Below the pieces are notes generated by a model that worked only from the letters and a program-made list of their open reading frames with translations, made no database searches and was not told where the DNA came from. 64,000 bases of DNA from Strigamia acuminata (lineage: Eukaryota > Arthropoda > Chilopoda > Geophilomorpha > Linotaeniidae). Shown piece by piece: positions 1,776-63,234 of this stretch (position 1 is the first letter of the stretch; the number at the start of each line of letters is the position of its first letter). The DNA is taken from positions 11,598,186 to 11,662,185 of the forward strand of contig OX442317.1 of assembly GCA_949358305.1 (NCBI GenBank), written 5' to 3'. A program made the translations under genes and the position numbers.

Positions 1776-3032
1776 ATGAATTCCTGGAATTTATTTGTAA
1801 AAAAATATAAAGATTTGGGGTTTGATAGTAATGTTCTGAGTAAAATTTATAAACACCACCTTGTTAAACAATATTTATTAGAAAACAAAGAATTTCCAAG
1901 TCGTAAGGAAATTAAACGAATAGGTTTGTCTCTGATTAAACAAGTTGATGACAGTGAAACAGACGAGAACATGTTTGACACAAATAGTAAGTTAGTAGAC
2001 AAATGTGGTAGGATTTCAACCGAAAAGGTTTATGCAACAGATAAAATAACAGATCGGTTAACGATTTTACAAAATTCTGTAGATTATTTAATAAATATAA
2101 CTGATAAAAATGTAAACCAAGTGACTGGTCGAGCAATATTTGACAGCAAGGTTAGTTTAACTCCTGGAGATCACGTCTTGTTGCCAACATCGTCTAAATT
2201 AAGCAATTATATTGTTACTTTACAGAGACGATGGACTATATTGGCGTATGAATTAAAAGAAAAATTTACTAATCTGGATGACATCAGTTATTTGGAGAAT
2301 AACATGGCATCGATAATTGTACAGATTTGGAAGTTGATTGATTTTTATTTGTTAAACGAATATTATAAAACAATGACAGAAAAAGAATTAATTAAGCGGT
2401 TTTCGATTACTGATGAGAAGATAATAACAGATGCCAATATCTTAAGCAAAGTACATGAATTACAAAAGCGAGCATTAAACGATCAGACAGTAGAATACAT
2501 CGTTCCTGTAATTTGTGTGGTACGTAAACAAGGCAGAAATGACGGAAATTCAAACGATTTGCAGGACGATATACAAGTACTGAATGAAACATGCGAATAT
2601 TTTTTTTATTTAGTCTTTAATACAGACAGTATCATAAAGGAGTTACAGGCACCATCTTTGCATTCCATACATGCTTTTACACAAAATTCCTTACATTCGG
2701 TGTTTGGTCAACCACCAAATTCAATTCTCGAATTACCATTTGATCCTGAATCCGACGAACATGACTCGTCTACTTTTGAAAGAAATGCAGATATTACACA
2801 CTTAACAAACCAAAATGTCCTGTGGAAGTTAGTACTGATGTGCGTACACGCAATTGCCCATGTCAACACCTTCCTTGATAAAGGTTATAATATGCGTCGT
2901 GGTTGCGAGCACGATGACCTTTTCAATCAGCAGTTAATGTTAATGTTTCCCATGACTTTCATGGACAGTAAATACTTGCCAAACTTTGTAAAACATATTT
3001 TAAACCTAAGCAATATTGCACATCGATATTAA
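1776..3032 (+). CDS. Virus-type protein of unknown function (418 aa)
   Basis: Intronless frame of 418 codons. The frame is open upstream to a GTG at 1725, but the first ATG at 1776 follows an A-rich leader, as at other virus-type genes here, so I chose it. The product is hydrophilic and rich in Lys, Asn, Asp and Leu, has no signal peptide or obvious membrane helix, and has a more hydrophobic C-terminal quarter with His and Cys residues. I recognise no domain. It lies next to the oppositely oriented gene at 3233-3739, and both sit between inverted copia fragments. An uninterrupted frame this long in roughly 65% AT DNA makes it very likely a real gene. Viral origin is inferred from composition, lack of introns and the company it keeps. 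Confidence 0.75.
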   Translation: MNSWNLFVKKYKDLGFDSNVLSKIYKHHLVKQYLLENKEFPSRKEIKRIGLSLIKQVDDSETDENMFDTNSKLVDKCGRISTEKVYATDKITDRLTILQNSVDYLINITDKNVNQVTGRAIFDSKVSLTPGDHVLLPTSSKLSNYIVTLQRRWTILAYELKEKFTNLDDISYLENNMASIIVQIWKLIDFYLLNEYYKTMTEKELIKRFSITDEKIITDANILSKVHELQKRALNDQTVEYIVPVICVVRKQGRNDGNSNDLQDDIQVLNETCEYFFYLVFNTDSIIKELQAPSLHSIHAFTQNSLHSVFGQPPNSILELPFDPESDEHDSSTFERNADITHLTNQNVLWKLVLMCVHAIAHVNTFLDKGYNMRRGCEHDDLFNQQLMLMFPMTFMDSKYLPNFVKHILNLSNIAHRY

Positions 3033-3213
3033 TAAAAAAATATATACTAATAGTGGTGTGATGAACCCCGGTTGTCATCACTAATCTGTCCACAAAGCGG
3101 ATTTCATAGACTGGATAGTGACGGGCCTAATCAGGTTAAGGACCAGCAAAGAGAGTAAATGCATACGGTGGTAGATTTGGAAGTCGACTAGTTTAATAAA
3201 ATAAAACGAACGA

Positions 3214-3241
3214 GGTTGCTAGGCAGCTCAGCCTAGCAACC
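3214..3241. repeat. Short perfect hairpin at a gene 3' end
   Basis: GGTTGCTAGG and its reverse complement flank an 8-base loop. The hairpin covers the stop codon and last codons of the minus-strand gene 3233-3739. It could be a transposon terminus or a transcript-end structure; nothing else decides this. Confidence 0.55.
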
Positions 3242-3739
3242 CATGACATGATACAATGTTTGTATTGTTGTAAGGATGGGGGAAGACACAACAAGTGGCA
3301 AATCTGGTTTCTTTATTACATCTAGAAATTGTATGTAAGATTTTCCTAGTTCGCGTATATTAAATGTATAAGTTGCTATCTCAGTAAAATATTTATTCAA
3401 ATTTTCAATATGTAATTTACATTTATCTTTATATAAATCAAGCACATTTAGGTAAAAGAAATTAATAAAAATAAATTTATCGCCTGTAGTTGCCTTCAAT
3501 GTGACAGTATTAAGGTTTTTTTCTAGTTTATCTGTTTCGATGATTACTTTATTTTTTAAATTATCTATGTGTGTTTTTAACGTTTTTTTATATGTGTCCA
3601 TATAATTTATTTGAAAACTAACGTCAGACATGTAATCTTTTATCCATACAAACATTTGAATTCCTAAAATTTGTTTGTTAAGTTTATCTGTTTTTATGAA
3701 TGTTTTCACGTCTTCCGATGATAAGCCTATGTTTTCCAT
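3233..3739 (-). CDS. Virus-type protein of unknown function (168 aa)
   Basis: Intronless minus-strand frame starting with ATG directly after a TTTAAAAAA leader. The product is rich in Lys, Asn, Thr and Leu; the stretch from residue 50 to 130 looks mostly helical and may form a coiled coil. No Cys cluster or membrane helix is evident and I recognise no family. It converges on the 418-codon gene upstream, 200 bases away. The last residues (ending MGC) lie inside a hairpin at 3214-3241, so the original C-terminus may have been altered by an insertion. A real gene is likely from length and leader; viral origin is inferred from context. Confidence 0.6.
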   Translation of the reverse strand: MENIGLSSEDVKTFIKTDKLNKQILGIQMFVWIKDYMSDVSFQINYMDTYKKTLKTHIDNLKNKVIIETDKLEKNLNTVTLKATTGDKFIFINFFYLNVLDLYKDKCKLHIENLNKYFTEIATYTFNIRELGKSYIQFLDVIKKPDLPLVVSSPILTTIQTLYHVMGC

Positions 3740-3869
3740 TTTTTTAAATTAGAAAAAAACCAAATCAATCTATAGAATAAAACTTAATAAACTTAATAAT
3801 TTTTAACAGCGACATAAGTAGTGCGTCATTTACAATTTGAAATTGAACTCACAGATTGATGACCCTGGC

Positions 3870-4660: not shown

Positions 4661-4833
4661 TGGTCTGGGTTTGGTATTCAGATACCGAGTTACCAATTAG
4701 TCGTATATATTAGTTGCTATGCTAAAGGTGTATGACCACCGAATAATGCAACCCCACCATCGCAGCAAATAAAACATGTAAATGTGTATGCTATCTGTAT
4801 GATCAGTTACGCCTGTATTGTAAAAGATTTTGT

Positions 4834-6837: not shown

Positions 6838-6970
6838 TTTTTATATATACACTTATCAAATTTTATAAACTGATTAGATCAAATAGATGTAATTAAAACA
6901 GAGTTGTGTGTCGGTCTGTCATTTATCAAAGTACAGGGCTCAGAATAATTTCATGTTGAAAGCGTCTCAC

Positions 6971-9832: not shown

Positions 9833-9890
9833 TTGTTATTTTTTGCAATAAAGTATAAATTTAATTTATTAAAAAAAGAAATAAAAAACA

Positions 9891-10833: not shown

Positions 10834-12003
10834 ATGCCAGTATCACGTAATTTCCGTCGAAACAAAAAGTTGCTGGAAACACCAACCAAAACAGAAAAAG
10901 ATAATTTTCTAAAATCTCTTAAACCATTAGTAGAAGTCACTATAGATAATGCACTAAAATTTGGCACAGAAATTTCGAATAAGTGTATGCTAAGCCATAA
11001 GTGGTTATCATTTTCGAGATCTTCAAACGAAATCTTTGAAAAGTATAAATATGAAGCTTCTGTTTTTCCCTCAGTATGCAAAGCATGTCTTGCTATAAAA
11101 TTTGGATTGTTACAGACATTCAAACACACCGTGATTAACTACTGCTCAATAGAGAAATATAGGAGTTTAAACATGAACGAAGGACCGTATCTTCAAGCAT
11201 ATTCGTCATTGTCTCACAAAAAAAAAATAGTTTTCCCTACAACAACAATCATTATACCGTGTGGTTATTTATTATTTGATTTTCTCATGACTGATTCTGC
11301 AAGCTTATTTCTTCACGATCCTGATAAAATTCCGATGTATGAAATAAAAAATGATAAGTACATTTTTAATCCGTTTATTTATGAATACTTTAAAGCATTA
11401 TACCACAAATACAGTTTTCATACAAATATAAATTTATCTTTGATAGAAAAGTTTTTAAATTATAATGTTGGAATCGATGAGCTAGATTTAATGTCTACAT
11501 ATGAAGCTGAAGCGTTGTTAATAGGAGAGCTTGTTCGTCCTAGTACTAATAGTTCAGTGTTTATTCAGAAGGAAGGAAAGGGTGGAAACGACAAACAGTT
11601 TGTAAACAAAGTGTTTAGTTACAACACACATCCAGTTATAAAGGACAAAAATGCCATGATAATTGAAGGATCTGAGCAGCTGTTTTCTTCTGATTTTTGT
11701 ACGTTGATAAGCAACATCGATGAGCTAGAAAAAACTATATACAAACCTTATTTTGAAAATGTTCAAGAAATTACTGGAAAACGTATTATATCTCATTGTA
11801 TACCGAATAAAATATTACAAGACGATGAACCACCCAAAACATTTCGTGAATATAAGTACAATGTGCAATGGGTTTCAAGTGTAGGTTTGGTGGCAACGAA
11901 AGATATATATAATGAAGAAATATTAGTTGGGGATGCTGAAATAAAATTCAAAGACTTCGAACAATTAAATATAAATGCACATAAGAACGCTACCTACTTT
12001 TAA
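10834..12003 (+). CDS. Zinc-binding paralogue family, member 1 (389 aa)
   Basis: The first ATG at 10834 follows a TTTTTTTAAAAAAAAAAC leader. It shares with the genes at 30135, 31774 and 33802 an N-terminal block with a conserved C-x-LSH motif (CMLSH here) and, about 35 residues on, C-x2-C (CKAC) followed by KFGL. It also shares an 'EGPYLxA(Y/F)' block, an 'I(I/L)P(S/C)GxLL' block, a 'YEAEALL' block, and near the C-terminus an 'N-V-x-W..GVGLV.T.DI..E.L' block. It is the most diverged and shortest member: it lacks the first Cys of the others and their C-terminal 'EGR....MC(L/I)YA' tail. Function unknown; a zinc-dependent structural or regulatory role is inferred. Confidence 0.75.
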   Translation: MPVSRNFRRNKKLLETPTKTEKDNFLKSLKPLVEVTIDNALKFGTEISNKCMLSHKWLSFSRSSNEIFEKYKYEASVFPSVCKACLAIKFGLLQTFKHTVINYCSIEKYRSLNMNEGPYLQAYSSLSHKKKIVFPTTTIIIPCGYLLFDFLMTDSASLFLHDPDKIPMYEIKNDKYIFNPFIYEYFKALYHKYSFHTNINLSLIEKFLNYNVGIDELDLMSTYEAEALLIGELVRPSTNSSVFIQKEGKGGNDKQFVNKVFSYNTHPVIKDKNAMIIEGSEQLFSSDFCTLISNIDELEKTIYKPYFENVQEITGKRIISHCIPNKILQDDEPPKTFREYKYNVQWVSSVGLVATKDIYNEEILVGDAEIKFKDFEQLNINAHKNATYF

Positions 12004-14851: not shown

Positions 14852-14871
14852 TATGTGTATATATTCAAGGC

Positions 14872-16085: not shown

Positions 16086-18404
16086 ATGGACGGCAAAGAA
16101 CTAAATGCAAGTATATTAAAAAGGGATGGTCGAAAAGAAGCATTCAGCCTGGCTAAAATATTTAAACGAATAGAAAAACAGTGTAAGAAGTTAGACACTC
16201 CGTTTATTGACGTAAAAAAAATGGTACATTTGATAAGCCATGATGTTTACAACAATCAACCGTCTAGCGATTTAGATGATGCAATGGCAAGAAAATTATC
16301 TTACTTTATCGATGATCATCCAGATTATGACAAGCTCTCTGTGCGAGTCGCAATTACAAAATTACACAAGTATACATCTGAGTCGTTCAGTGACACCATG
16401 CAAGAATTAATAAATGCTAAAATTATCGATGAAACAATGGGTGTCAAGTTGCATGAAATAAATTCGAAGTATGGTGATCTGTCTAAAATTATTGATCACA
16501 GCAGAGATTATGACTTTACGTATTTTGGATTGGAGACAATGAAACAGTTGTATTTATTGAGAATTCAAGGCAAGATAATGGAAAGACCTCAGTACATGTT
16601 TATGAGAGTGGCCCTGTTTCTCCATTACGACAATTATGACGCGTTAATAGAAACTTATGATTCTTTATCAAAAAAAAATTATATACACGGCTCGCCCACT
16701 ATGAGTAATTCAGGAACGATAACCTCACAGCTGTCTAGCTGTTTTCTTTTGAGTATTCCACCTTTTTCTGTAGGTAATTTTATGAAAACCATGACACAAT
16801 GCATAGAAATAAATAGACGAACTGGTGGAATAGGGATAAATTTTAACAATATTCCAAGCGACAAATTTATAAGTTGCGTCAAAATAGCAAACGAGTGTTT
16901 GAATCTTGGAAACTCGTGTACGCGGAAACGTGCAGGTGGTATCGCTATTTATATCGAACCATGGCACGCAAACATAATGGAATTTTTGCAGTTCAAGAGA
17001 CAAACGGGGAAGGACGAATTACGAGCACGTGATATCTTTTACGGATTATGGGTGCCTGATCTTTTTATGAAAAGAGTATTTCATGATGAAATGTGGACAC
17101 TATTTGATCCACGTAACAAACGAGTCATAAAACTCAGTAAATCTTACGGATCACAATTTGAAGAATTATACGAGGCGATGGAAATCAATAATAAATATGT
17201 GTATGAAACAATTAAAGCTCGTGATATTTGGAGATCAATAATAACGTCGCAGATAGAAACTGGTGGGCCATATATGTTGTACAAAGACACATGTAACAAA
17301 TTTAACATGCAAAGTTATTTGGGTGTCATACGAAATTCGAATCTGTGCACGGAAATTATAGAATACTCATCGTTTAATTCCATAGCAATGTGCAATTTGG
17401 CTTCGATATCTTTACCTAGATGTATAATTAATGGGAAATTTGACTATCAGAAGCTTTCTGAAATCACGAAATTAGTCACTAGAAATTTAAACAAAGTAAT
17501 AGATAAAAACAAATATTTATTCAAGGAAGCACACAATTCTAATATGGACAATCGACCTATTGGAATAGGTGTACAGGGTTTGGCTGATGTATTTGCAGAG
17601 CTGGAAATACCATTTGAAAGTGAATTAGCTAAAACATTAAACAAAAATATTTTTGAAACAATGTATTCCTCTGCAATTGCGGAAAGCTGTAAAATTGCCG
17701 GTAAACAATCACCCTTTGTGAACTTCCATCGATCCAAGTATTACGATGGAATCTTACACCATGATCAATGGGAAAACTTAGACAGTATGTTTGACGACGA
17801 TACGTGGTCAGACATAAGGGAGGACATCAAATTACACGGAATAATAAATAGTTTATTAATTACTGTAATGCCAACTGCGACCACATCCCAAGTGCTGGGT
17901 AACAATGAGTCAATAGAACCTTATACTGCCAATTTATACTTGAGAAGAACGCAAGTAGGCGAATTTAAAATTGTGAACCGCCACCTCGTCAAAATGTTAG
18001 CGAATAAAAATTTGTGGAATAAAAACACAGTAAATGATATCCTACAACATGGAGGTTCAATACAAAATATAGAATATATCCCAGAAACAATCAAATCTAT
18101 CTTTAAAACTGTGTGGGAAATTCCACATAAGGTTATCATTGACATGGCTGCAGATAGGGCTTCATACGTAGACCAAAGTCAATCGTTAAATATACATATA
18201 GCTAATCCATCTTCCAATACTTTAACTAATATTCATTTTTATTCCTGGAGCAAGAATTTGAAAACAGGAATGTATTATTTGCGAACAAATCCGGAAGTAA
18301 AATGTACAGCATTCACGCTCCCCACATCATCTGGAGGCCAACATGAAAAAGTTGCAAGTGAAATCATTGTTTCTGATCCGGTTGTGTGTAATTCGTGCTC
18401 ATAA
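16086..18404 (+). CDS. Ribonucleoside-diphosphate reductase large subunit
   Basis: Class I R1 subunit, which reduces ribonucleotides to deoxyribonucleotides together with a small radical-bearing subunit. An ATP-cone-like start is present (KRDGRKEAF near residue 13). The redox pair is Cys219 (LSSCFLL) and Cys436 (MCNLAS); the radical site is Asn419-Leu-Cys421-Thr-Glu423. The phosphate-binding MPTATTSQ block lies near residue 597, the radical-transfer Tyr730-Tyr731 in MYYLRTNP, and the C-terminal redox pair is Cys768-x2-Cys771. Positions closely follow the eukaryotic/viral type, and 772 residues is normal length. One intact intronless exon fits a viral gene. The small subunit gene is not in this window. 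It would supply dNTPs for viral DNA synthesis by the polymerase at 25691. Confidence 0.97.
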   Translation: MDGKELNASILKRDGRKEAFSLAKIFKRIEKQCKKLDTPFIDVKKMVHLISHDVYNNQPSSDLDDAMARKLSYFIDDHPDYDKLSVRVAITKLHKYTSESFSDTMQELINAKIIDETMGVKLHEINSKYGDLSKIIDHSRDYDFTYFGLETMKQLYLLRIQGKIMERPQYMFMRVALFLHYDNYDALIETYDSLSKKNYIHGSPTMSNSGTITSQLSSCFLLSIPPFSVGNFMKTMTQCIEINRRTGGIGINFNNIPSDKFISCVKIANECLNLGNSCTRKRAGGIAIYIEPWHANIMEFLQFKRQTGKDELRARDIFYGLWVPDLFMKRVFHDEMWTLFDPRNKRVIKLSKSYGSQFEELYEAMEINNKYVYETIKARDIWRSIITSQIETGGPYMLYKDTCNKFNMQSYLGVIRNSNLCTEIIEYSSFNSIAMCNLASISLPRCIINGKFDYQKLSEITKLVTRNLNKVIDKNKYLFKEAHNSNMDNRPIGIGVQGLADVFAELEIPFESELAKTLNKNIFETMYSSAIAESCKIAGKQSPFVNFHRSKYYDGILHHDQWENLDSMFDDDTWSDIREDIKLHGIINSLLITVMPTATTSQVLGNNESIEPYTANLYLRRTQVGEFKIVNRHLVKMLANKNLWNKNTVNDILQHGGSIQNIEYIPETIKSIFKTVWEIPHKVIIDMAADRASYVDQSQSLNIHIANPSSNTLTNIHFYSWSKNLKTGMYYLRTNPEVKCTAFTLPTSSGGQHEKVASEIIVSDPVVCNSCS

Positions 18405-21135: not shown

Positions 21136-21538
21136 ATAGTGCGTGGAATGACCTTGTTCTGTGTACTTTTAAGTTAAAATAAAATTGTGTTTATTATCAA
21201 TAAAATAATTTATGTAGACTTTATTTTATCTTCATTTAAATAATTAAGAAAAAAATTACGGAGTTTTTATCCTCAATGTTTAATGAAAAAATATATACGA
21301 TGGTTTAAAGCTTTAATTGGTTTTATAGCTTTAATTATCGTATCGTTGTAAGTAATTACAAGGCTAGTAACTGTGAGCTTGAATATATATAGTGTGCTTA
21401 ATTTAAGCACGAATAAGTTGAACTGTTGATTTGGTCACTAGACAGTCCTCTATCGTCTCTTTTCTCTTGGTTATTAACCCCCTTGTTGAGACAAAAATAC
21501 TATTTCCGGTTGTTGATTTGTTTGTGCTCACGTTTACA

Positions 21539-43404: not shown

Positions 43405-43475
43405 AGCGTGTAACTCGATAATTTCTAATTTCCTTTTTCTTCTTTTCTTTTTGTTATTTCGTCTTTGTGGCCATT

Positions 43476-44591
43476 CTAGTTTCCCAATGCATTAGGTGGT
43501 CCACCACGTGGGGCTCCTCGATTTCCTCGGCCTCGGTAATTTTCAATAAAATTTTTACCTTTATAATTCGGATTTTGTGGATGGCCTTGGTTATTCGGAT
43601 TCCCCTGTGGTCTTTGTCCTTGTGGTGGATTCCATTGCTGTTGTGGTGGATTCCACTGCTGTTGTGGATTTTGCTGTTGGAATCCTTGACCTGAATCATT
43701 CCACTGATTATTCCAATTACCTCTGTTTTGACCTCTATTGTCACTCCATCCTCTTCCTTGGTTCCTATTATTGCCATTCCACCATCCACGTTGTTGTCCA
43801 GATCGTCCTCTAAAGTTACCTCTATTGTAGAACTGGGCCTGGTTTGGATGTGGTGTATACCATTGATTTTGATAGAAGACTGGAGTAACCTCTGCATATT
43901 GAGCTTCCCCAAACTGCTGCTGTTGTCTTAGCACTTTGACCTCTGCTAACAACTCGTCTTTGGTTTTATTGACGTCGCTCGGTTCAACTAACAAGCTTGG
44001 TTTCACCTCGCCTGTTGTATCAACAGCTTTTTGCAGTAGGGTTAGTAAAACTTCTGCAGGGTCCTCACTGAATGCATGAGCTTCCAATAATCCAAGTTGA
44101 GATGTTAATTGATCCAATGTCTTTGGAAAATTGACTACCAATTTATCTCTAGTCACCTTTTTAAGTCCTTGAAACACATGAAATATCTTTTGTTCTTCAG
44201 TAAATGCTGGTCTCGCAAAAGAACATTCTTTTAATATTTTCTGCATATGTTCCAAAGCTGTCCCATCTTTGTGCTGCATTGCCTGTAATTTCGACAAAAT
44301 TGTTGTTATTTGTCGTCTGAATTTTGCCTTCAACGCATCTTTCCATTGAATCCATGTTCTAGTCGGATGTTGTGGAAGTTGGTCTAGATACCACGATGAT
44401 GCGGAGGATTTCAGCACAATTGATAGATGTTTAATTCTCTCGGTGTCATCGGCTATTGTATCTTCATATCCGATCAGCCATGTGTCAATATTTCCTGTCG
44501 CCGGATCAAAGTCAACTGGATTTCTTCTATTAACCACTAAATTTTGTAATACCGTCTGTATTGCTACAAGTTCTGGTGAAGCATTTGCCAT
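43476..44591 (-). CDS. gag: Gypsy Gag
   Basis: The frame is open from about 44990, but that part has no ATG (its apparent start at 44897 is TTG); the first ATG is at 44591 (MANASPELVA). The middle has a helical capsid-like region (FDPATGNIDTWLIGYEDTI, then WYLDQLP). The C-terminus is rich in Gly, Gln, Asn and Trp with RGN/RG repeats instead of CCHC zinc knuckles, presumably the RNA-binding part. The upstream open stretch may be translated from a non-AUG codon or joined by splicing. Confidence 0.8.
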   Translation of the reverse strand: MANASPELVAIQTVLQNLVVNRRNPVDFDPATGNIDTWLIGYEDTIADDTERIKHLSIVLKSSASSWYLDQLPQHPTRTWIQWKDALKAKFRRQITTILSKLQAMQHKDGTALEHMQKILKECSFARPAFTEEQKIFHVFQGLKKVTRDKLVVNFPKTLDQLTSQLGLLEAHAFSEDPAEVLLTLLQKAVDTTGEVKPSLLVEPSDVNKTKDELLAEVKVLRQQQQFGEAQYAEVTPVFYQNQWYTPHPNQAQFYNRGNFRGRSGQQRGWWNGNNRNQGRGWSDNRGQNRGNWNNQWNDSGQGFQQQNPQQQWNPPQQQWNPPQGQRPQGNPNNQGHPQNPNYKGKNFIENYRGRGNRGAPRGGPPNALGN

Positions 44592-44897
44592 TTTAATTGG
44601 TGATTGTTCTTTATTTATACACAAATATGAAAGTTCTAAATTTGGTTGCTCCTCAACGTCTTGGAAAACGTCCTTCTCGTCTGCGTCGTCCTGATCACCC
44701 TGTTCTCGTATCAATAATTCTCCTAATTGCTCCACCTCGTGTGGGAACAATTCAGCTTGAAGATCAGCACTAACAACTCGTATTCGGTGCTGTTGCGGGG
44801 TTTCACCTTCCCTTTTTTGAGTTTTAAGTCCCTCTTTGGGTTTTGGCCCCCTATTTCGCTCAGTCACCTTGTCACTCAATGCTGTCTCTTCTTCCAA

Positions 44898-45834
44898 CTC
44901 TTCTTCTTTCTTACTACCTGAGAGCAGGTAATCCGTTACGTATTTTGAAAACGCGTAACGTCTAGAGTCCGCAATGATTTATTAATTGTAGAGAAGACAC
45001 AATCCTTTGACTCGAAGCACTTTTAATTCACTTTTCCAGTTATAAATAACACTATAACTTTTTAGCACACAAAACTCTTTTCACTTTCTGAAAAATAATT
45101 CAATAATTAAACACTTCAATTTTTACAGAAATGTTTCAAAACACTAGAACAATTCAATAATTAAACAATTCAATTTTCACGGTCATAATTACAAAAATAT
45201 CCAAAAAAAAAACGATTCATTTTCACGGTCATAATTACTAAATTTCATCAAAACTATTCAAGGAAAAATTTCTTATTAATAACACTTTACAAAAATGCTC
45301 TGGAAAAAAAACAAATTCATTAATAACTATAAACAATATATTCTCTATTATTATCCAATTTTATCTCAACATCACAATTAAATTCCTTATTAACATACAA
45401 TTTCATCAAATTTTATCAAAATTCAATCAATAATACTATATCAATTCAATTCAAAGTCAAATATCACAGTAAATAACACTCAAATGCAAATTTATCCAAT
45501 TTAAACACTCAAAACTTCTATTCTATTCTATTTTATTTTTTAGACTTTGCCAATTTTCAATCTAATTGACCTATTTATTCACTAGCAATGACTCAATCTC
45601 ACTTTCCTATCAGTTTCACAAATGAATCACTCATATTTAAATTAGTTTGGGATTTCTCTAAATTTTATATGATTTTCAAGGCTATTTTTAAGCTAAATTT
45701 GCCAATTTTATGTTATTTTAATTCTAATTTCACTCATTTTGCTCTAAATTTTACGATTTTTGATGATTTAACTCTAATTTTCGGGGTTTTTATTCTAATT
45801 TTGGTCTCGGCGAAAGAACCGCACCTCCACCATT
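44898..45834 (-). other. Gypsy 5' leader
   Basis: AT-rich untranslated leader of the element between the 5' LTR and gag, containing the primer-binding site at its LTR end (about 45816-45832). No gene. Confidence 0.7.
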
Positions 45835-46407
45835 TGTTACGTGGATTCCGGGCCTGATCAGGTTTCCACGCAACTGTGTTTAATTGGGGTTTTAATGAGT
45901 GTGAAAAGGAAGGAATGAGATTCATTTATGCTTTAAATTCAATTCAGATTTATTTGACCGGACAAACAGAGTTTGTTCGATCCCTTTTAAATTCAGTTAC
46001 ATTTATTCTCAAACAGGTCAGAATGTTATTTGGATAAACTATCATTTTACATTTATCAAATGTACAACCTTTATTAATTGGGTTATAAAACAACTGTGTG
46101 ATAATCTAAATGTAATGCAATCAAATTGGTTTTATAGTCATCAGCCGCGCTCTTTATTGAGGCGACATCAGACTCTCTAGTTCCTGAAAAGCAAAAGTGA
46201 TTAGCGAGCTGTCTTAGTGCGGGCTCCTTATTTATAGCAAATCTGCCATAAACCCCATAATTGAATTGATCGGTCCATCACATGGCGATGACGGAGTCCA
46301 ACCGTCAGCGCCATCTGTGGCCGAAATTTAGCAACATTTAACCTAATAATGATTCGAATTACGTGCTACGAATCGCGCATCAATTGGCACGGTTCGTACA
46401 CGTGACA
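45835..46407 (-). repeat. 5' LTR of the gypsy element
   Basis: 573 bases, same sequence as 38333-38905 by eye; the outer end is next to the ATAT duplication at 46408. Confidence 0.95.
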
Positions 46408-47114
46408 ATATATCATTCGAGATATTGAGCCAGGTGCTTAAAAGAGGCATTTTAGAGTTGGAGCACAACCAAGCTTGGCTTAACAGCGGCGAAAATAAAA
46501 TTTATAGATGTGAAATGGACAACAACGTTGTGACGATTGTATATTTACTTATTTTAGTAACAAAAAAAATTGAGAATACATCGAAGGAAGAGAAGGAGCT
46601 CATTTATACATTGGTATCTAAATTGAATTATCTCCGACCAACTACTAGATATAACAGATATTCACTTCTGCATATTGTGGTGCATCCACAAATGGCGAGG
46701 AGTAACTATTTTTATGATTGTATTGCCAACGCAGACGTTGTCAGACTGTTGATTAAGTGTGGTGCTGAAGTGAACATTCGTGACAAGAACGGAAACTCTC
46801 CTTTGCATTTAATTGCCATTTACCAGATACCCAACACTGACTGTTCCGTAAGCCATTCGGTATTAATGGAATTGATAAACAGTAAGGCGCACCTGGATAT
46901 TGTCAACAACAATGGACAGACCCCGTACGACGTTGCAACGAATTGTAACACCAAGAGTACATTACTTACACTAGTTAATTCCAAACTAAATCTCGGATGT
47001 ATTGCAGCTAAAGCAGTGTGCAGATATAAGATTCCATATCATCGCGAACGCGTACCACAAATTTTACACCGTTTTATTGAACTTCATGGATTTATTGATG
47101 TTACTGGACGCTAA

Positions 47115-47561
47115 ACGCTATATTTGAGACACTGAACACTTTGGGAATGTATCCGTTTTAAACCGTGGACGTCCCTTGTGTGTCGAGCTGGACAAGAACA
47201 TCGCCCACCCCATAAGAGATGCGACCGCGACCGCTGGTTTATTCAGCTCTTAGAATATAAGGACAGGGCATTATCAAACGCAAGCTTAATTACGAAAAAA
47301 AAATTTTCTCGGGCAAAACTGTTAATAAAAGACGGTTTCTCATTCAAATCTTTGTTAATCTTTATAGTATAGTCTTTCATCATCCCTGTTATCCAGTGTT
47401 ATAGATGAGGAGAATCCCCAGAATTGAAACCAGAATGAGATAAAGAAAGGATGCAAGCCAATAATAACTACTTTGTAATAGGTGTTTTAACAAACAAAAT
47501 TCAATAAGGACTTATCTACAGAGCTGTTGTTGTAATTCCATCAGCTTTAATCACACCACTA
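47115..47561. other. FEM1 3' flank, no gene
   Basis: Downstream of the FEM1 stop; a 64-residue frame at 47178 has no support. Presumably 3' untranslated and spacer sequence. Confidence 0.45.
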
Positions 47562-47838
47562 CAGTCAGTGCACGGTATCTTGATGCTAAATTCGTACTGC
47601 GCATCCCATTCTGCGCAGACAATTTTCTAATTCCAGTTGTTATTTAGCAGTATTAAGCCTAATATTAGGCCTATCAATGCTAAAATAAAGTAAATAAACA
47701 CAAATATTTTGGTTATACTGTGAGAATTACTTTTAATGATTAGTTTTTTGTTGTTTATTTACTTTATTTTAGCATTATTAGGCCTAATAATGCTAATAAA
47801 TAAATAAATAAATAATAATAAATAAATAATGGGTCACC

Positions 47839-49191
47839 ATGGCCGCTACCAGTCGCTTTTGCATCACGCTCCAGAACCAAACAGACATCTTGCAAAATAT
47901 CGATACATTGACTGATATTTTCTACTCGATGGCAGCTGCTCACCCGACGGCCAAAACTATCATAGATGAGTTTGATTCCTGCTCGAAAAAGATCATTTTC
48001 ATCGCAAGTAATGCTCAACCGTTAGGCCTCGCCGCCACTGACCGCGTGGTCGCCACTCGTAGATCTGGCAGAAAACGCCTTAAACGTACCGAAAATACCT
48101 CAACTGGAGGGAAATGGACCACCACTACTTCACGCCCGTCTTCCAATGCCTTACGCGGCGATTTGGACGAATTTTCCGACATCTCATCTGACGACGCCGT
48201 GAACGAATCCAATGCCGTGAATGACGCCCGTAAAACCGCCGAGTTGACCGCCACTCAACCCAACACACAAACAGTACGTAATGTCGTCCAAATCATTGAC
48301 CCACTGCAACCACCATCACCAACAACACCGAAATTACCCGTCCCGACATCGAATTCACTGCAACTAGACCAAATCCAGGCCTCGATCGCGAAAATTGAAT
48401 CGATAATGGCTGCCGTCAATAATACCCTCGCTACGCACGCATTAGACATTGTCGCGCTACAAAATGGAGCTGCCGTTTCTCCAGGTAATTCAAGTGATGC
48501 TCCATTACTTCGTGTATCGTCCAACTCAGTGCCAAACCTAACGTCATTGCCACTCGCTGCCCCGCCGCCACGGTCGTACGCCAGCGCCGCTGTTTCAAAT
48601 CGCCCACCCGGACACCATGTCACCACAAGTGCCGCAATCTCGAAGCCACACGCGCCTGACAACTTGAACACCACCAACACGGAGTCTTACCCGCCCCGTG
48701 CACCTGCCCGTATCCGCTCTCTCATCCAAAACTCGACCAGTACTGCTGAACTTTCATCGTTTTCTCGCGTTACTGCCCGTGATGATGCTCGTGATGGTGC
48801 CCGCGACAATGTTTCATCCCGCGGTGCCCCCCGCATCCGCTCGAGGATCGGTAATGTGGTTGGAAGTTCCCTCCGTGCTGCCACCGCCCTTGATGACCGT
48901 CCGACTACGCGCATCCTGCTCTCAAATCTGCTCGCCGCCACCACTGCTGAGGAGGTTCGCTCGTACGCCGTTTCCCGCGGCCTAACCGTCCTTCAGTGTG
49001 CAAGATGGACTAAGGAGGACAAATCCATCAGCAAATCGTTTTTCCTGCGCATCGCTACAGATGACCCTGCGTCATTGATCTCCCCGCACATGTGGCCCCG
49101 CAGCATCGGCGTCCGGCCATTCCACGGCAAAAATCCCCATCTCCTACCCACTCACCCCTCTCCCACCACTAATATTCAGCCCTTTTCGTAG
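47839..49191 (+). CDS. LINE ORF1 protein (450 aa)
   Basis: Intact frame ending TAG four bases before ORF2. Ser/Thr/Pro/Ala-rich with a low-complexity middle; the last 80 residues contain a small folded region (ILLSNLLAATTAEEVRSYAV) of the type seen in ORF1 of CR1/jockey-like elements. No CCHC knuckle is visible. It probably binds element RNA. GC content is far above that of its neighbours. Confidence 0.75.
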   Translation: MAATSRFCITLQNQTDILQNIDTLTDIFYSMAAAHPTAKTIIDEFDSCSKKIIFIASNAQPLGLAATDRVVATRRSGRKRLKRTENTSTGGKWTTTTSRPSSNALRGDLDEFSDISSDDAVNESNAVNDARKTAELTATQPNTQTVRNVVQIIDPLQPPSPTTPKLPVPTSNSLQLDQIQASIAKIESIMAAVNNTLATHALDIVALQNGAAVSPGNSSDAPLLRVSSNSVPNLTSLPLAAPPPRSYASAAVSNRPPGHHVTTSAAISKPHAPDNLNTTNTESYPPRAPARIRSLIQNSTSTAELSSFSRVTARDDARDGARDNVSSRGAPRIRSRIGNVVGSSLRAATALDDRPTTRILLSNLLAATTAEEVRSYAVSRGLTVLQCARWTKEDKSISKSFFLRIATDDPASLISPHMWPRSIGVRPFHGKNPHLLPTHPSPTTNIQPFS

Positions 49192-49195
49192 TAGC

Positions 49196-51925
49196 ATGGC
49201 CACCCGGTCATGCAATAACCTTCCTTTTACCATCATGTACCTGAATGCACGCTCTTTATTTTCCAAAATTAATGACATCGTTGGCCTCGCTCAGTCGTCT
49301 GGTCCCGACATCTTGGCTATCACCGAAACCTGGGCCTCTCCTGAGTGCCCAGACGAGTGCTTCAACATTCCCGGCTATTCTCTGGCTCGTACTGACCGTT
49401 CATCCCGTGGGGGCGGAGTTGCATTGTTTTTTAGAGACTTTTACACTTTTACCTCCCAAATTTCATTTGAGTCTGATGGTGCCGAATTTCTGTTCGGTGT
49501 CTTGTCTTCTTCGAGCTTCGTTACCCAGATAATTATACTGTATCGTACTTCTTCTTGGCCGCTTTCTCACATTTTTGACATTTTCACCGAACACTTTTCC
49601 CCAAACCTTTCTACTATCGTTGCTGGTGACTTTAACCACAACTTTCTTGTTAATTTGTCCAATGACGACGTTGTTAGATTCATGGCTAGTGCTGACTTGT
49701 CTCCCACAATCTCCAAACCCACTCGTGTTTGCAACACTACTGCCACTTTAATTGACCAAATTTTTATCTCCAACCATTTAGTCATGACCTCGTGTACCTT
49801 GTTCGATCTTGATATGCTCGACCACAAAGTCGTCCTGCTATCATTGTCCATTCCTAAACCCCCCACCCCTCCCCCACCTCTCCGTACCCCCATGTATGCT
49901 TTTAATAAATGTAACTGGGAGTTAATTCGATCTCAATTGTCTTTAATTGATTGGCAGCCTCTTACCGCTTCGACTGACATTGACTTCAAAGTTTCTTTCT
50001 TTTGCACCCAAATTCGTAAATTGTTATTGAAACACGCATCCCCGTCCTCCCTATCTCGCAAACGCCCTAAACCTTGGTGGACTGCTGAACTTTCTACTCT
50101 TCAAAAAACCAAAACTATGCTCTTCCTCCGTCGTAAGTCTGGTTGCATCACGGATCACAAAATTGCCTGTCGCCACTTCAAGGCTATGGTACGGCGTAAT
50201 AAACGTCAACTAGTCATGGCTTCAAAAAATTTTTGGCGCCTTGTTAAACCTAGGACGTCCACTACATGTCTTCCCGACTCCCCTAATATCTATGAGTTGT
50301 ATGCTAAGTTCCTCGACAACCCTCTCAACACTACCATCCCTAACTTTCCACCTTCCTTTTCTCCAACCCCGTGTTTATTACCGTCATTTAATTCCTTTAA
50401 GTATGTAACTCCAGCTGACATTGCCTTTGCTGCCCTGAATACTAACCTCACATCGAAGTTCTCTGCTGACGGCATTCCTGGTATTGCTATCAAACACCTG
50501 TTGCCATCGATTCTCCTTCCCCTCACCAACATTTTCAATACTATCATTGACTCATCCACCTACCCCACTGCCTGGAAACAGTCCGTCATCACTCCTCTTT
50601 ACAAAGGTGGTGATAAATCCCTCATCTCTAACTTTCGCCCTATTTCTTCTCTCCCTCCCTTATCAAAATTAGCTGATCGTTGTATCCTCCTTCAAATCCG
50701 CCCTACCATCACCAAAAATTCTTCCCCTAATCAGTATGGTTCCCGTCCCGGTTCGAGCGCCCTGAAGCTCATCTTTACTCTTTACTTCGAAATCGTTCGT
50801 GGCTGTGACTCCCATCGTCATGTTCACATCGCGAAAACTGATGTATCCAAGGCTTTTGATACCCCGTCTCACTCCCATACCCTCTCTTCGTTGGAAAAGC
50901 TCTCCATTGGTCCTATCCCGCTGTCACTGTTTTCGTCGTACCTCTCCAACCGGTCATGCCAAATTGCCTCCGACCCCAAAAAGACTGTTTTTCCTTCTAC
51001 CCGTGGTGTGACCCAAGGCTCTGTGCTCGGACCTTTGCTGTACAACATTGTCTCCAATCCTGTTCTGGATCTTCCACTGACTTCCAGCATTCGTTCGTTC
51101 GTTGATGACAATTTTCTATCCCGCACGACTCCATCAAACCTTAATATTGTTTCCTCCGACCTCTTTTCAGCCGACATCTCCATTCTAACTGACTGGTATA
51201 CGTCTCATGATATGTGCCTCAACCCCTCTAAAACCAATATTGTCACTTTCAAACGAGTTCCTAATGCTCGGTCCTCCAACCCCACCGACTCGGTTTCCAT
51301 TCTTGGTCTTACCTTAGACCCCCACTTGACATTTGCCCCACACATATCTCTCCTTACAAAATTCCTCTCCCGGTCAGGCTTCATTGTTAACAAACTTCGT
51401 CGAGTTTTGTCCCAGCCTGAATTGTCAACATATATTAAAACCAAAATTCATCCTAAAATCACGTATGCTTCCCCGATTTGGAATTCGTCCCCTCATAGAT
51501 TTAAAATTCCCCTCATTACTGCATATAACCTCGTGCTTCGTTTCGCCTTTAAAATCCCGAGGTACGACCACATCACACCGCACTGCAGAAAACATAAGAT
51601 ATTGTCATTGGTCAACCTACTGCTCCTCTTTGATTTGTCATCATTGTGTGATGCTCTCCGCGACCCTGCTCATCCCGCGCATTTCATCACCAACCAATAC
51701 CACCCGGAGGCCTTCGTTCGCACCACTCGTAGACACATGTTTGAACCTGCCACGCATATCACTGCATATTTGTCGAAATCGTACCCATTTCGTTGTTTCT
51801 CGTCTTGGAACAATCTCCCCATCGAGCTTCGTTCCTCTGCCCTTGAATGTTCGTCAGCTATGTGTGCGTCTCATTGCCGCCATTTCCATCGGCGCCTACA
51901 TCGTCACTTATTATCGGTTCAATAA
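49196..51925 (+). CDS. LINE ORF2: endonuclease and reverse transcriptase (909 aa)
   Basis: The N-terminal endonuclease/exonuclease/phosphatase domain (YLNARSLFSK, DILAITETW, then AGDFNHNF) makes the target nick. The reverse transcriptase follows, with FRPISSLPPLSKL, TDVSKAFDTPSH, GVTQGSVLGPLLY and catalytic FVDD (SFVDDNFLS) in place of the usual FADD/YADD. The frame is intact. The element ends in AAATAAATAAATAAT tail repeats near 52003. It resembles the CR1/jockey group; the exact clade is not assigned. Confidence 0.9.
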   Translation: MATRSCNNLPFTIMYLNARSLFSKINDIVGLAQSSGPDILAITETWASPECPDECFNIPGYSLARTDRSSRGGGVALFFRDFYTFTSQISFESDGAEFLFGVLSSSSFVTQIIILYRTSSWPLSHIFDIFTEHFSPNLSTIVAGDFNHNFLVNLSNDDVVRFMASADLSPTISKPTRVCNTTATLIDQIFISNHLVMTSCTLFDLDMLDHKVVLLSLSIPKPPTPPPPLRTPMYAFNKCNWELIRSQLSLIDWQPLTASTDIDFKVSFFCTQIRKLLLKHASPSSLSRKRPKPWWTAELSTLQKTKTMLFLRRKSGCITDHKIACRHFKAMVRRNKRQLVMASKNFWRLVKPRTSTTCLPDSPNIYELYAKFLDNPLNTTIPNFPPSFSPTPCLLPSFNSFKYVTPADIAFAALNTNLTSKFSADGIPGIAIKHLLPSILLPLTNIFNTIIDSSTYPTAWKQSVITPLYKGGDKSLISNFRPISSLPPLSKLADRCILLQIRPTITKNSSPNQYGSRPGSSALKLIFTLYFEIVRGCDSHRHVHIAKTDVSKAFDTPSHSHTLSSLEKLSIGPIPLSLFSSYLSNRSCQIASDPKKTVFPSTRGVTQGSVLGPLLYNIVSNPVLDLPLTSSIRSFVDDNFLSRTTPSNLNIVSSDLFSADISILTDWYTSHDMCLNPSKTNIVTFKRVPNARSSNPTDSVSILGLTLDPHLTFAPHISLLTKFLSRSGFIVNKLRRVLSQPELSTYIKTKIHPKITYASPIWNSSPHRFKIPLITAYNLVLRFAFKIPRYDHITPHCRKHKILSLVNLLLLFDLSSLCDALRDPAHPAHFITNQYHPEAFVRTTRRHMFEPATHITAYLSKSYPFRCFSSWNNLPIELRSSALECSSAMCASHCRHFHRRLHRHLLSVQ

Positions 51926-52229
51926 TCATTGTATCATTGTATCATACTTGTGTCTCATTTCTTTTTACTCCTTTGGAGTGCGATCAAATAAATAAATAAT
52001 AGGCTTAATACTGCTAAATAACAACTGGAATTAGAAAATCGTCTGCGCAGAATGGGATGCGCAGTACGAATTTAGCATCAAGATACCGTGTGCTGACTGT
52101 AGGCACCATTTTATTTTCGAGGTAGTTGGACTTTTTACATTTGTATTTATTTTTATTTTTTTACTAATTAATAAAAAAAATAAACACTTGTATAAAGCAA
52201 ACAAATTTTTATTTTCATTATTTTTAACA

Positions 52230-54769: not shown

Positions 54770-56548
54770 ATGCAATCGAAATACTTTTCACCACCAAGTT
54801 TATCGAACGCAATATTGTTTGACAAGACTAGGTAAATATTATCTTTTAACAATGTATGAGATCAACGCCATTCATTCAAATATTTTTTTAAGGAAAAAAA
54901 AAAACAGGTTAGATCAAGATTTACCCATCAGTGACATGATTATGAAGAAGTGTGATGAAGAAAGACCTATTTTCCCAGCAGACATCGATGGCGACAGAAA
55001 AAGAGAAAGTCTTTCAGAACGTATAGTAAGAACAACTTATATCTAAACATTTTAATCAACAAGAATAACTGGATAAAACCTTTTATTTATTCAGAATAGG
55101 ATATTGCTGAGCTCGGGTTGGCAAGCTCTACCACCATCAACTGACACTAATAGTGCTATCAGAGGTAAGATTGAACATGTGAATGTATTCATTAATCTTT
55201 TCATAGATCATTATTTGAAAAACGGAACTTCCATTACGATGTCTGATTCAAACAAACTTGACACAATCGGAAATTCCATTATTATGCCTAATTCAAATAA
55301 CTTTGACCCAACTGGAACTTCCATTCTCATGCCTCATACTGCCAACAATTTTGAAATAACCAGAAAAGGTACAAAATTAATCTACACATTGATAGTCAGA
55401 GTTAAAATTTTATTTCAAAATTGGCTCTTTCAGATTTTCGCGATGACAGCTATATTTGGAATGGCGAGATTCTATGTCAATTAAACGTTAACAAAACTTA
55501 TTCAAAACAAATTTTCATTGGAGGTCTTCCTCTTGATGTCACAGATGGTAACAATTATTAGAGCGTTGAATAAAACATGTTTTATTCTGAGATTAGAGTT
55601 CTGTATGGAATTTTAATTACCTTTTTATACCTTAGATGTGTTAACGATTGCATTCAATCAGTTTAAAATAGATCAAATTAATTGGCCAGGAATAAATGAA
55701 AGTCGCACAAGAGGTAAGACATCAAATTGAAGTTTGGTTTATTTCTTTTAAATTATCATGCAGGTTATACTTATATTGTGTTCAAATCTGCAAAACACGT
55801 CAAAGATCTTTTGGGACAATGTGTTTACTACGACAAAAACTGGTATTATCCAATCTCAAGTCCACAAGCGACAAAGTTTGTATGTATCAAACAGTCCAGA
55901 CATTTTTAAACTACTATACTATAATTTATTACAAACAGGTTCAGATAGTTCCATGGATAAAAGAAAACTGTGTTTATCCTCAATGCACACCTCTAGTGCT
56001 AGATGTAAAGCTAACAGCTTTCATATGTGGAATTCATGGAACATTCACTGCACAAGGAATATATGAAATTATGAATGAGCTTTTTGAATGCGTTTCTTAT
56101 GTTGTGTATAATACAAACAAGGAAGATTATCCAAATGGTTGGTATGAAACATGAAAAGTCCAATTTTTTCTTTATGATGTTTTAAATTGTTAGGAACAGC
56201 GAATGTGGGATTCAGTGACCGGCTATCATTTATGAAAGCAATCACCGCGACCTCTTTTATAATCAAGACAGCTAAGATTATGAAAAAAGTGATTAAATAA
56301 ATAGAAATATGTTTAACAACTTATGTATCGAATAATAATTATTTTTTTAGATACTAGTGTTTCCATATCTGGAAAACTCCTTATGTTCAATGTGCAAAGA
56401 TAAAAATGGACTTTATTTTTGTCGGGACATTTTATGTTTCAACTATTTTTGTAAGTCTTGTTGGAAAAAACATCACGCATCCTGGGCGTTGAACCATCAT
56501 AAGCAGATTATGTTTATTAACAAACGTACAACAGTACGTGACGACTAA
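54770..56548 (+). CDS. CPEB-type RNA-binding protein (10 exons, ~408 aa)
   Basis: Exons: 54770-54831, 54893-55025, 55095-55164, 55207-55368, 55434-55547, 55636-55713, 55764-55879, 55939-56137, 56194-56288 and 56351-56548. All have GT/AG borders and phases match. RRM1 has QIFIGGLPLDV and GYTYIVFK; RRM2 has VQIVPW followed by LTAFICGIHGTF and NGTANVGFSD. The last exon holds the CPEB zinc domain (C-x2-C, C-x4-C and C-x2-C followed by two His). CPEB proteins bind U-rich elements in mRNA 3' ends and control polyadenylation and translation. The N-terminal region is short, with a repeated (G)TSI.MP.S/NN motif in exon 4. Introns are only 42-88 bases. The sequence is divergent from common CPEBs. A clear animal gene; the first exon choice is tentative. 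Confidence 0.85.
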
Positions 56549-57904: not shown

Positions 57905-57940
57905 AATTTCAAATACATTTATTTAGTTAGATTTCTCATA

Positions 57941-58144: not shown

Positions 58145-58153
58145 TACATCTAT

Positions 58154-58678: not shown

Positions 58679-58749
58679 TGTTAAACTGTAATATTAAAAT
58701 TAATGGAAATATCTAATTGCATTATGTAATTAAATGATCATAAGTATAC

Positions 58750-61605: not shown

Positions 61606-61781
61606 TCAAATTGTTTTTATTATACTTGATTTACAGACACATTGTGATTTACAGACATACCATAGCAATGTGTTTGAAGGAAGTTTATGGATTATATAAG
61701 AATGAGATTAACAAGATTAGATACACAAAGGAGATTAACAAGAGATTTAAAGATTTCAAATACGGCTGTCTGCCACATTGG

Positions 61782-62312
61782 TCACTCATATTTGTCGTGT
61801 TTCAAAATTGCAGGTGTCTTAGGATGGTCTTCATCCTCCAGAAATACAGTATATTTAGTTTGGCCATTTTTAGATCCCACTGTTGTCTTGGAATAATCTA
61901 CAGAGTCCACAATTGCATTATTTTCTGATCCATCAAGAGGCATGGTGTCTGTAGGCGGCATTTTGTTTAAAGGGTTGTAGCTCGGTGTTTTGTTGACGGA
62001 ATGCAGCAACGGTCCTGATTGTGACTCATCGAAACAAACTAGGATAGATGGGCTCCAAAAAATGTGATGTATTAGCGGTATAGATGCTATAACCAATACC
62101 ATAAACGAGTAGCGTGCAAGAATCGTTAATATACCAAACGATAGCTCCGTTTCTGTACCAACACTCGATGGCTTCGTTTCTCTACCAACACTCGGGTCTT
62201 TATCTGCATCTGGTAACACATAGTCATCCTTTACTGCCACTGGCTCTATCTTCTTAACTCTATGCTTCAAAGTATCCAAATCATCTTCAAGTTTTGGTTG
62301 TTTTTTTTGCAT
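61782..62312 (-). CDS. Single-pass membrane protein (176 aa), origin unclear
   Basis: ATG at 62312. Residues 1-65 are charged (coiled-coil-like start, then Asp/Lys/Thr-rich), residues about 67-88 are hydrophobic (RYSFMVLVIASIPLIHHIF), and residues 89-176 are polar, Ser/Thr/Pro-rich. The DNA is GC-richer than the virus-type genes beside it and lacks their leader type. It could be a host exon, a gene captured by the virus, or a younger gene. No family recognised. Confidence 0.45.
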   Translation of the reverse strand: MQKKQPKLEDDLDTLKHRVKKIEPVAVKDDYVLPDADKDPSVGRETKPSSVGTETELSFGILTILARYSFMVLVIASIPLIHHIFWSPSILVCFDESQSGPLLHSVNKTPSYNPLNKMPPTDTMPLDGSENNAIVDSVDYSKTTVGSKNGQTKYTVFLEDEDHPKTPAILKHDKYE

Positions 62313-62709
62313 AGTTGCTGAGGCTAATATACCAACTGCAGTATGTCTAATACTGAAGAGATTATAAAACGGTATGTACCGATCGGTCTCTATATACTCC
62401 TTGTTGATGTTTTGATTTAGGAATAATTAATTTAAAAATAAAATAATTATCATTTGAATAAAATTTGGAAATATTTATTACATTATTATTTTACGGTTAT
62501 GACATGATAAACTGCTACTACGGATAGATTAGCTGTTTGAATAGACGTTATTCCGATTAAATCATTTAATGCCAGCTTTTTGAATTTTTAAACAAATTGA
62601 TAAGCGATTCTTATTATTATTATTGAGAATTAAACATTTGATATTACTATTACATTCGTAACTTAATAATAATTCAATTGCCAACAGTCATTCAGAATCA
62701 TCCAGCATT
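62313..62709. other. AT-rich intergenic region
   Basis: Divergent spacer between the minus-strand membrane-protein gene and the gene at 62710; presumably contains both promoters. Nothing specific seen. Confidence 0.35.
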
Positions 62710-63234
62710 ATGAGAAAACACACGTTAATTGCAAATGATTTAATGTCTGATTGCATTCACATATTTCTAAAACAGTTGATTATACTCAAAATTGTTAAAT
62801 TTATCCGTTCCCCAAGCAAGTTCTTAAAAAAATTAAAAAATAAACACCAAGTTTATTTTTTTTACTGTAATAAATTGTATACAAGTTTAGGAAAACCAAT
62901 TATTGATTGTAAAAAACGAAACGAAATTTCGTATAATATAAAACATTTAAAAATCGTTTTAAGAATTTATTTCGAAGTTTGTAAAAAGTTAAATATTTTC
63001 CCCAGTGAAGGATATGCAATTTGCGGATTAGAATACAGAATAAGCAACACGGATAAAATTATAATACATACATCCGCTGATGTGTCGGATTGTTTTTCCG
63101 AAATTCGTCAGTTATGGTTATTGTATAGCCTTTATTCAAATGGAAAATATAATTATTACAGCGATCCAAAAGTAGTGCTGAATAAAATAAAAGAATTGAA
63201 TAAAGGAATTTTAACTACATCTAAAATCAATTAA
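62710..63234 (+). CDS. Virus-type protein of unknown function (174 aa)
   Basis: Intronless, very AT-rich frame with a Lys/Ile/Asn-rich product (helical N-terminal half; CGLEYRI and several Cys in the second half). No signal peptide or membrane helix is certain. No family recognised. Composition and lack of introns match the virus-type genes; last such gene in the window. Confidence 0.6.
   Translation: MRKHTLIANDLMSDCIHIFLKQLIILKIVKFIRSPSKFLKKLKNKHQVYFFYCNKLYTSLGKPIIDCKKRNEISYNIKHLKIVLRIYFEVCKKLNIFPSEGYAICGLEYRISNTDKIIIHTSADVSDCFSEIRQLWLLYSLYSNGKYNYYSDPKVVLNKIKELNKGILTTSKIN

Follow-up and report, generated by a model that had tools for sequence, protein, structure and literature searches.

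The 64,000-nucleotide stretch of Strigamia acuminata DNA analyzed here (the window, G000:C5:11598186-11662185, in an assembly of 237.5 Mb and 157 contigs) very likely represents about one-quarter of an endogenous large double-stranded DNA virus of the Naldaviricetes (baculovirus-like), which measures at least 237 kb with its transposons included and occupies at least four loci in this arthropod genome. One unit of this element holds four per os infectivity factor (PIF) genes, a family B DNA polymerase (PolB), a primase-helicase that joins an archaeo-eukaryotic primase (AEP) to a superfamily 3 (SF3) helicase, both subunits of ribonucleotide reductase (R1 and R2), a thymidylate synthase, a LEF-9-like protein, a sub-threshold LEF-4 and a tyrosine recombinase. 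The best reading of this gene set is an integrating naldavirus that forms a giant mobile element, like the endogenous nimaviruses, but whose replicase is D5-like and whose FEM1 family has expanded; its order-level placement and its mobility are points that we infer. The open reading frames (ORFs) named in a first-pass annotation of the window are present and lie far above chance expectation, as the window contains 31 ATG-initiated ORFs of at least 150 aa (32 by a second count); shuffling it locally 30 times gave an average of 0.2 such ORFs, and no ORF longer than 203 aa.

PIF genes are signature genes of Naldaviricetes, as stated in the accessible part of PMC10271883. In a search of the whole genome, PIF-0/p74 and PIF-2 are each found at four loci and PIF-1 and PIF-3 each at three, all above the Pfam cut-offs, and each PIF query found a match in 0 of 14 control genomes; the protein in the window that had been described as PIF-like is PIF-2 (Table 1). 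Outside the window, the unit encodes a 659-aa RNA polymerase large-subunit protein (Rpb1-like and LEF-9-like, E 6.9e-11) with the motif NGADFDGD, the tyrosine recombinase (piece L026:8664-9491, E 8.8e-15), and, by Pfam, thymidylate synthase (E 4e-115) and R2 (E 4e-82), together with an AlkB-like dioxygenase, a NIF/DUF705 phosphatase, a BRO-N and DUF3627 protein, an XRN-like nuclease (XRN_N) and a sub-threshold RING-like protein. We take DUF705 to be the baculovirus 38K family. At the limits used, 14 of the 30 flank and window proteins have no Pfam family, and among the scanned ORFs, which cover part of the unit, Pfam gave no match to a double-jelly-roll capsid or packaging ATPase, for which no whole-genome search was made. 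The first-pass annotation had held that the mix of a D5-type primase/helicase with a PIF-like protein fits no lineage it could name; instead, the four PIF families, the LEF-9-like protein and the sub-threshold LEF-4 indicate Naldaviricetes, with the D5-like primase as the odd element. Based on this gene content, we would provisionally file the element in or beside Naldaviricetes and leave its order undecided, as uncontrolled searches gave no match for LEF-8, p33, PIF-5 or the helicase (see below).

Of the replication genes originally described in the window, PolB, R1 and the primase-helicase are confirmed by profile matches. PolB carries the exonuclease motifs FDLE, YNCNMFD and YKLDDV and the polymerase motifs DYASLYPS, KLLANSLYG and YGDTDS, all located by motif search, and R1 matches a human-type R1 over nearly its full length (701 bits). 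The primase-helicase matches TIGR01613 at E 9.2e-21 and 74 bits, below the curated cut-off of 108.7, with the SF3 helicase in its C-terminal half; there, a motif search locates a Walker B-like MVVDE and LVLAGN, while the Walker A-like GASANNGKTT was recognized by eye only, as the search pattern missed it. The N-terminal half contains VIDVD, GLHIH and LDVSIRNWPLPFSSK by motif search, a set which we take to be the AEP pattern, and some of these short patterns also match elsewhere in the protein. For the CHC2 zinc protein, the evidence is a Pfam match below the cut-off together with a match to a PHROG DNA primase (Table 1). Searches of the PDB gave no match for the primase or PIF-2, and single-protein scans of IMG/VR, which reach close relatives only, gave no relative for four of the five queries (PolB, PIF-2, primase and the LEF-9-like protein); the fifth, R1, returned six loci at 42% identity, which are not informative. 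An AlphaFold model of PolB alone was unusable (predicted local distance difference test score, pLDDT, of 30.5). T4-like phage polymerases, at 22-26% identity among the 15 listed of 694 records, were considered and set aside as too distant to place the virus.

PIF-2, PIF-0 and the primase are found at four loci on three chromosome-scale contigs, with two loci on C5 (17.0 Mb) and one each on C3 (37.8 Mb) and C13 (10.3 Mb), and with PIF-2 located at C5:11622922 (the window), C5:11166543, C3:1954800 and C13:1474486. The primase stands at 100% in the two C5 copies, 99% in C3 and 97% with one stop in C13, and the divergence between copies is roughly 0-5% in coding parts. The second C5 copy, 456 kb away, matches the window at 99.7-100% in long blocks where the window is without transposon, with lower values at a 24-bp repeat array and at the FEM1 5' part (99.3% in each case); this match continues at both sides of the window and is colinear at sampled places from 11080001/11535818 to 11250001/11736205. 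The C3 copy is colinear with the window copy in reverse, from window position -39,907 to +106,071 in the pieces and probes that matched. Identity is mostly 97-99.8% and falls to 93.5% in a single block of 589 nt. Each of the three longer pieces compared (L010, L027 and L028) matches over most of its length; of eight short probes in the colinear span, seven match at 98-99.7% and the eighth (C3:1905001) matches only a retroelement. Three further C3 probes, at 1885001, 2034001 and 2044001, gave no match and by position lie beyond the compared C5 sequence. The C13 copy is decaying, with 79-97% identity in patches (95-97% in the better blocks); a 10-kb piece of it (L029) consists of retroelement sequence, and neither L036 nor L037, used as probes, found a match. 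With transposons included, the span from the first to the last FEM1-like gene is 268,880 bp in the window copy, 237,333 bp in the second C5 copy and 268,909 bp in C3.

Both the Ty3/gypsy element and the reverse transcriptase (RT)/endonuclease element of the window are absent from the other C5 copy and from C3, and the Ty3/gypsy insertion, whose 300-bp end repeats are identical, is for this reason probably very young. The suggestion that the virus has been endogenized is thus borne out by the same gene set at four places on three chromosome-scale contigs and by transposons that are present in one copy and not in another, and the encoded tyrosine recombinase and the four loci are features of an integrating element. 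We also note that the window copy contains about 15 kb, at C5:11683812-11699214 and including a copia-like polyprotein recognized by eye, which the other C5 copy lacks.

Selection was assessed by pooled Nei-Gojobori comparisons of the window with C3 (8 of 18 listed ORFs, two only in part) and with C13 (4 of 18 ORFs, PolB in part), the C5 pair being too alike for such a test. Against C3, 17 synonymous and 17 nonsynonymous differences give a pooled ratio of nonsynonymous to synonymous rates (dN/dS) of 0.28 (Fisher p 2.7e-4), and against C13, 77.4 synonymous and 84.6 nonsynonymous differences give 0.29 (p 4.8e-14), or 0.19 when one fast paralogue with a broken frame in C13 is left out. Nonsynonymous differences between copies are depleted, and the lineages of these copies were constrained during their divergence, as expected of a replicating virus that inserted more than once; by itself, the low pooled ratio does not show present activity.

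The THAP, FEM1 and CPEB genes had been described as spliced animal genes between blocks of virus genes, a picture that proved largely wrong: FEM1 is intronless and lies within the viral unit, the DNA of the CPEB-like stretch up to 56470 recurs in the C3 copy at 99.8%, and the THAP stretch is identical in the other C5 copy and recurs in part in C13 (87% over window positions 21157-21778). The treatment of FEM1, THAP and CPEB as host flanks was rejected, since they are found again in other virus copies. Each C5 unit holds five FEM1-like genes, of which the window's own is split by the Ty3/gypsy element, while its C3 copy is a single 655-aa ORF (L027:4102-6069). The C3 protein aligns with human FEM1B from residues 21-647 to chain positions 5-630, covering the N-terminal ankyrins and the C-terminal part, and a second virus-borne protein aligns from 20-637 to 4-630, so that both are near full-length, co-linear matches to cellular FEM1B, from which they differ as diverged paralogues. 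C4 bears a further intronless FEM1B-like gene, of 657 aa, which matches human FEM1B with 741 bits, compared to 490 and 385 bits for these two virus-borne proteins, and is 50-58% identical to each of three virus-borne paralogues, which share 40-48% with one another. The C4 gene is probably the host gene, because it is nearer to human FEM1B than the virus-borne proteins are, and nearer to each virus-borne paralogue than those are to one another; on these sequence comparisons, the virus-borne set probably arose by capture of a host gene that then multiplied.

Two more regions of C13, at 7.60-7.71 Mb and 1.12-1.74 Mb, also contain intronless FEM1-like genes and may be further virus copies or fragments. 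Copies may have exchanged sequence, since one FEM1-like gene of the window unit is 99% identical to a C13 gene and only 96% to its counterpart in the second C5 unit. Near the FEM1 cluster, the identity of the C5 pair falls to about 92% in L051/L052 (C5:11300330-11301000 vs 11785878-11786649), beside a repeat coding NLDLQGIFAEE, which suggests gene conversion or repeat turnover.

A number of observations weigh against an integrating naldavirus. PIF-1 and PIF-3 were not detected in the C13 copy, which is also damaged, with R1 and one paralogue in two ORFs each, a stop in the primase and stops in a FEM1 gene. The LEF-4 match (E 6e-4) reaches 19.3 bits against a curated cut-off of 20.2, genome-wide Pfam searches in which no control gave a match found none for PIF-5 (PF04639), p33 (PF05214), LEF-8 or the baculovirus helicase p143 (PF04735), which does not show these genes to be absent, and no major capsid protein was identified. 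The low dN/dS holds for the pooled data and not gene by gene, as single genes show few changes and some do not show constraint (0.86 for the 453-aa paralogue; 0 synonymous and 2 nonsynonymous differences in part of the 667-aa ORF). No exact unit ends, target-site duplications or terminal repeats were identified, which leaves integration by the recombinase a proposal, and segmental duplication could account for the C5 pair.

Taking these points into account, we considered a single ancient insertion spread by host segmental duplication, with some genes kept for a host purpose, as in the domesticated particle-making viruses of parasitoid wasps. The near identity of the C5 copies, 456 kb apart, would fit such an origin, as would the many genes that are intact and, pooled, under constraint, and domesticated relatives of naldaviruses are known in wasps (accessible part of PMC10259472). 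We nevertheless judge it unlikely: to the left of the unit, a probe of 1 kb taken from retroelement DNA (C5:11030001) has no match in 6 kb at the paired position, and two 4-kb samples between the C5 copies hold no viral ORF (one, without any ORF of at least 70 aa, is 85% identical to unit piece L020 over 399 nt; the second resembles copia). Moreover, the C3 and C13 loci differ by 1-5% in coding parts with a low pooled dN/dS, one locus is decaying, and the polymerase is kept, whereas ichnovirus loci are said in the accessible part of PMC7379367 to have lost theirs. A wasp host is also unlikely, as a search without a positive control gave one marginal odorant-receptor match among 26 candidates; this result likewise disfavors a typical winged insect, and 54 matches to RR-type cuticle domains indicate an arthropod. 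Domestication by the host, which had also been proposed for the window, is not supported by these observations; the several copies, the tyrosine recombinase and the kept replication and entry genes are more in keeping with a virus or mobile element.

Unpurged haplotypes could also explain why the C5 pair is so nearly identical, which would suit a misassembly or an infecting virus assembled into host contigs. Such an artifact is highly improbable, given unequal divergence among the loci, retroelements in one copy that are absent in others, and viral genes that are interrupted or separated by gypsy, copia-like and RT elements; four loci, three of them with PIF-1 and PIF-3, and differing transposon insertions therefore disfavor chance misassembly or a contaminating virus. 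D5-like AEP-SF3 proteins, BRO-N/DUF3627 proteins and the R1, R2 and thymidylate synthase set are common to nucleocytoplasmic viruses, and their presence here would suit a hybrid or nucleocytoplasmic-type virus that merely gained PIF genes. We regard this origin as improbable in view of the four separate PIF genes and the LEF-9-like, weak LEF-4 and 38K-like genes, and nucleotide-metabolism and BRO genes are also reported for Apis mellifera filamentous virus (AmFV) in the accessible part of PMC4517127.

An integrating naldavirus shares many features with the endogenous nimaviruses (majaniviruses, pemoniviruses and clopoviruses), which, in the accessible part of PMC10871703, are described as giant transposable elements of the same class, of about 199-579 kb, present in several copies in arthropod genomes and in many cases AT-rich, with PIFs kept, tyrosine recombinases in most lineages and captured host or eukaryotic-like genes, some with introns. 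They differ in their copy number, estimated at 22-477 compared to at least four loci here, and nimavirids are reported without LEF genes (accessible part of PMC10271883), in contrast to the LEF-type genes and the FEM1 family found here; a further difference is that no run of at least four TTAGG/CCTAA units occurs in the examined pieces of the present element. From the accessible parts of the respective papers, AmFV shares PIFs, PolB, R1 and R2, thymidylate synthase and BRO, with a polymerase of 1954 aa versus 1073 aa here (PMC4517127), and the ant labial gland disease viruses share PIFs, PolB, an integrase, lef4 and lef9, with related endogenous elements in ant genomes (PMC12548425, PMC10655722). 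None of these three papers uses "primase" in its main text (0 occurrences), and "FEM1" appears 0 times in that of PMC10655722. The IVSPER loci of ichnoviruses are likewise of endogenous viral origin, contain a "D5 primase-like" gene and have an unknown ancestor, with the polymerase said to be lost and "per os" found 0 times in the accessible parts of PMC7379367 and PMC11075835; this likeness is one of description. If the present element is a novel Naldaviricetes lineage, it would be a candidate relative of the ichnovirus ancestor, in which the D5 primase-like gene was kept. Among the literature matches listed, from a search with subscription papers mostly outside it, we recognized no paper on this element or on a virus-borne FEM1.

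The genes discussed above are present in the unit, and the roles that follow are drawn from knowledge of their families. The recombinase would insert or excise the viral genome, which PolB, the primase-helicase, ribonucleotide reductase and thymidylate synthase would copy; LEF-like RNA polymerase subunits would transcribe late genes, PIF proteins would carry particles into the gut cells of new hosts by oral entry, and FEM1-type receptors would manipulate the host. The virus would thereby persist like a prophage or giant transposon, most likely as a temperate-like integrating virus. FEM1B is a substrate receptor of CUL2, and the link between the two is established. We infer that the virus FEM1 products would probably serve the CUL2 ubiquitin ligase as additional, alternative substrate receptors and redirect protein destruction. 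More tentatively, the element may belong to an undescribed lineage of family or order level in Naldaviricetes, temperate and chromosomally inserted, with a D5-like AEP-SF3 primase-helicase that perhaps replaces p143, LEF-1 and LEF-2 and a host-derived FEM1B multigene family that reprograms host protein turnover, a combination for which we hold less than even expectation. Chromosomally persisting giant DNA viruses have been described for crustacean nimaviruses, and a second group of such viruses, equipped with LEF-type genes and a replicase of D5-like kind, would widen this lifestyle in Naldaviricetes and would show an exchangeable replication module in the class, while a captured and expanded FEM1B family would offer a concrete, testable route of host manipulation via the ubiquitin system.

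Table 1. Features of the window, in window coordinates, with the evidence for each; entries given as ORFs or paralogue family members are unassigned.
Feature	Position	Strand	Evidence or remark
Viral ORF, 418 aa	1776..3032	+	no Pfam; 8 synonymous, 2 nonsynonymous differences vs C3
ORF, 168 aa	3233..3739	-	identical in both C5 copies and C3
ORF, 667 aa, N-terminal hydrophobic segment	4834..6837	-	no Pfam
CHC2-type zinc protein (primase-like zinc ribbon), 191 aa	9257..9832	+	Pfam E 4e-4, below cut-off; PHROG DNA primase 1e-9
Paralogue family member	10834..12003	+	frame broken in C13 copy
R1, ribonucleotide reductase large subunit, 772 aa, intronless	16086..18404	+	PF02867 E 1.8e-168
THAP-domain stretch	21422..21889	+	THAP E 2.4e-15
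PIF-2, 338 aa, four genome copies	24605..25621	-	PF04631 E 1.2e-17
PolB, family B DNA polymerase, 1073 aa	25691..28912	+	PF00136 E 9.5e-44
Paralogue family member, 463 aa	30135..31526	-	
Paralogue family member, 445 aa	31774..33111	-	
ORF, 191 aa	33157..33732	+	one nonsynonymous difference vs C3
Paralogue family member, 453 aa	33802..35163	-	
FEM1B-like gene, 5' part, intronless, cut by gypsy insertion	37068..38332	+	C3 copy uninterrupted
Ty3/gypsy element	38332..46133	-	pol 39679-43404, gag 43476-44591; identical end repeats 38332-38631, 45834-46133
FEM1B-like gene, 3' part	46408..47114	+	other half of gypsy-split gene
RT/endonuclease element	47559..52102	+	108-nt inverted ends, 96% complementary
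CPEB-like pieces, several frames	55696..56545	+	resemblance by eye only
ORF, 238 aa	56745..57461	-	
ORF, 174 aa	58154..58678	+	
AEP primase and SF3 helicase (D5/P4-like), 951 aa	58750..61605	+	PF19263 above cut-off
ORF, 176 aa	61782..62312	-	
ORF, 174 aa	62710..63234	+	

Among the remaining features of the window, the THAP domain is confirmed (Table 1), and the CPEB gene is not, as Pfam gave 0 families for 55696-56151 and the resemblance was seen by eye. Retroelement spans at 39679-44591 and 47839-51925 had been overlooked in the first-pass annotation, and the inverted ends of the RT/endonuclease element are unusual for an element without long terminal repeats. The ORFs at 23210-24055 and 12379-13281 fall in tandem repeats; 29 copies of a 24-bp unit at 23259-23942, adjoining PIF-2, form an array whose length varies between copies and which gives false ORFs because it is open in three frames. 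Rfam found nothing above its gathering scores in the window.

The paralogue family has six members, four in the window and two upstream at L047:4891-9635, and five of them, when scanned, gave no Pfam match that was convincing; an AlphaFold model was unusable (pLDDT 32). Cysteines are conserved toward the N terminus of the family, which also has a "GVGLVST" motif that recalls SET domains by eye. The 667-aa ORF resembles in style, again by eye, the unit ORFs L011:1048-3153 and L054. Finally, the unit encodes two related secreted-looking proteins (L023:5478-8278 and L048:6744-7505), which share 53% identity over 159 aa, and a third that is similar by eye.

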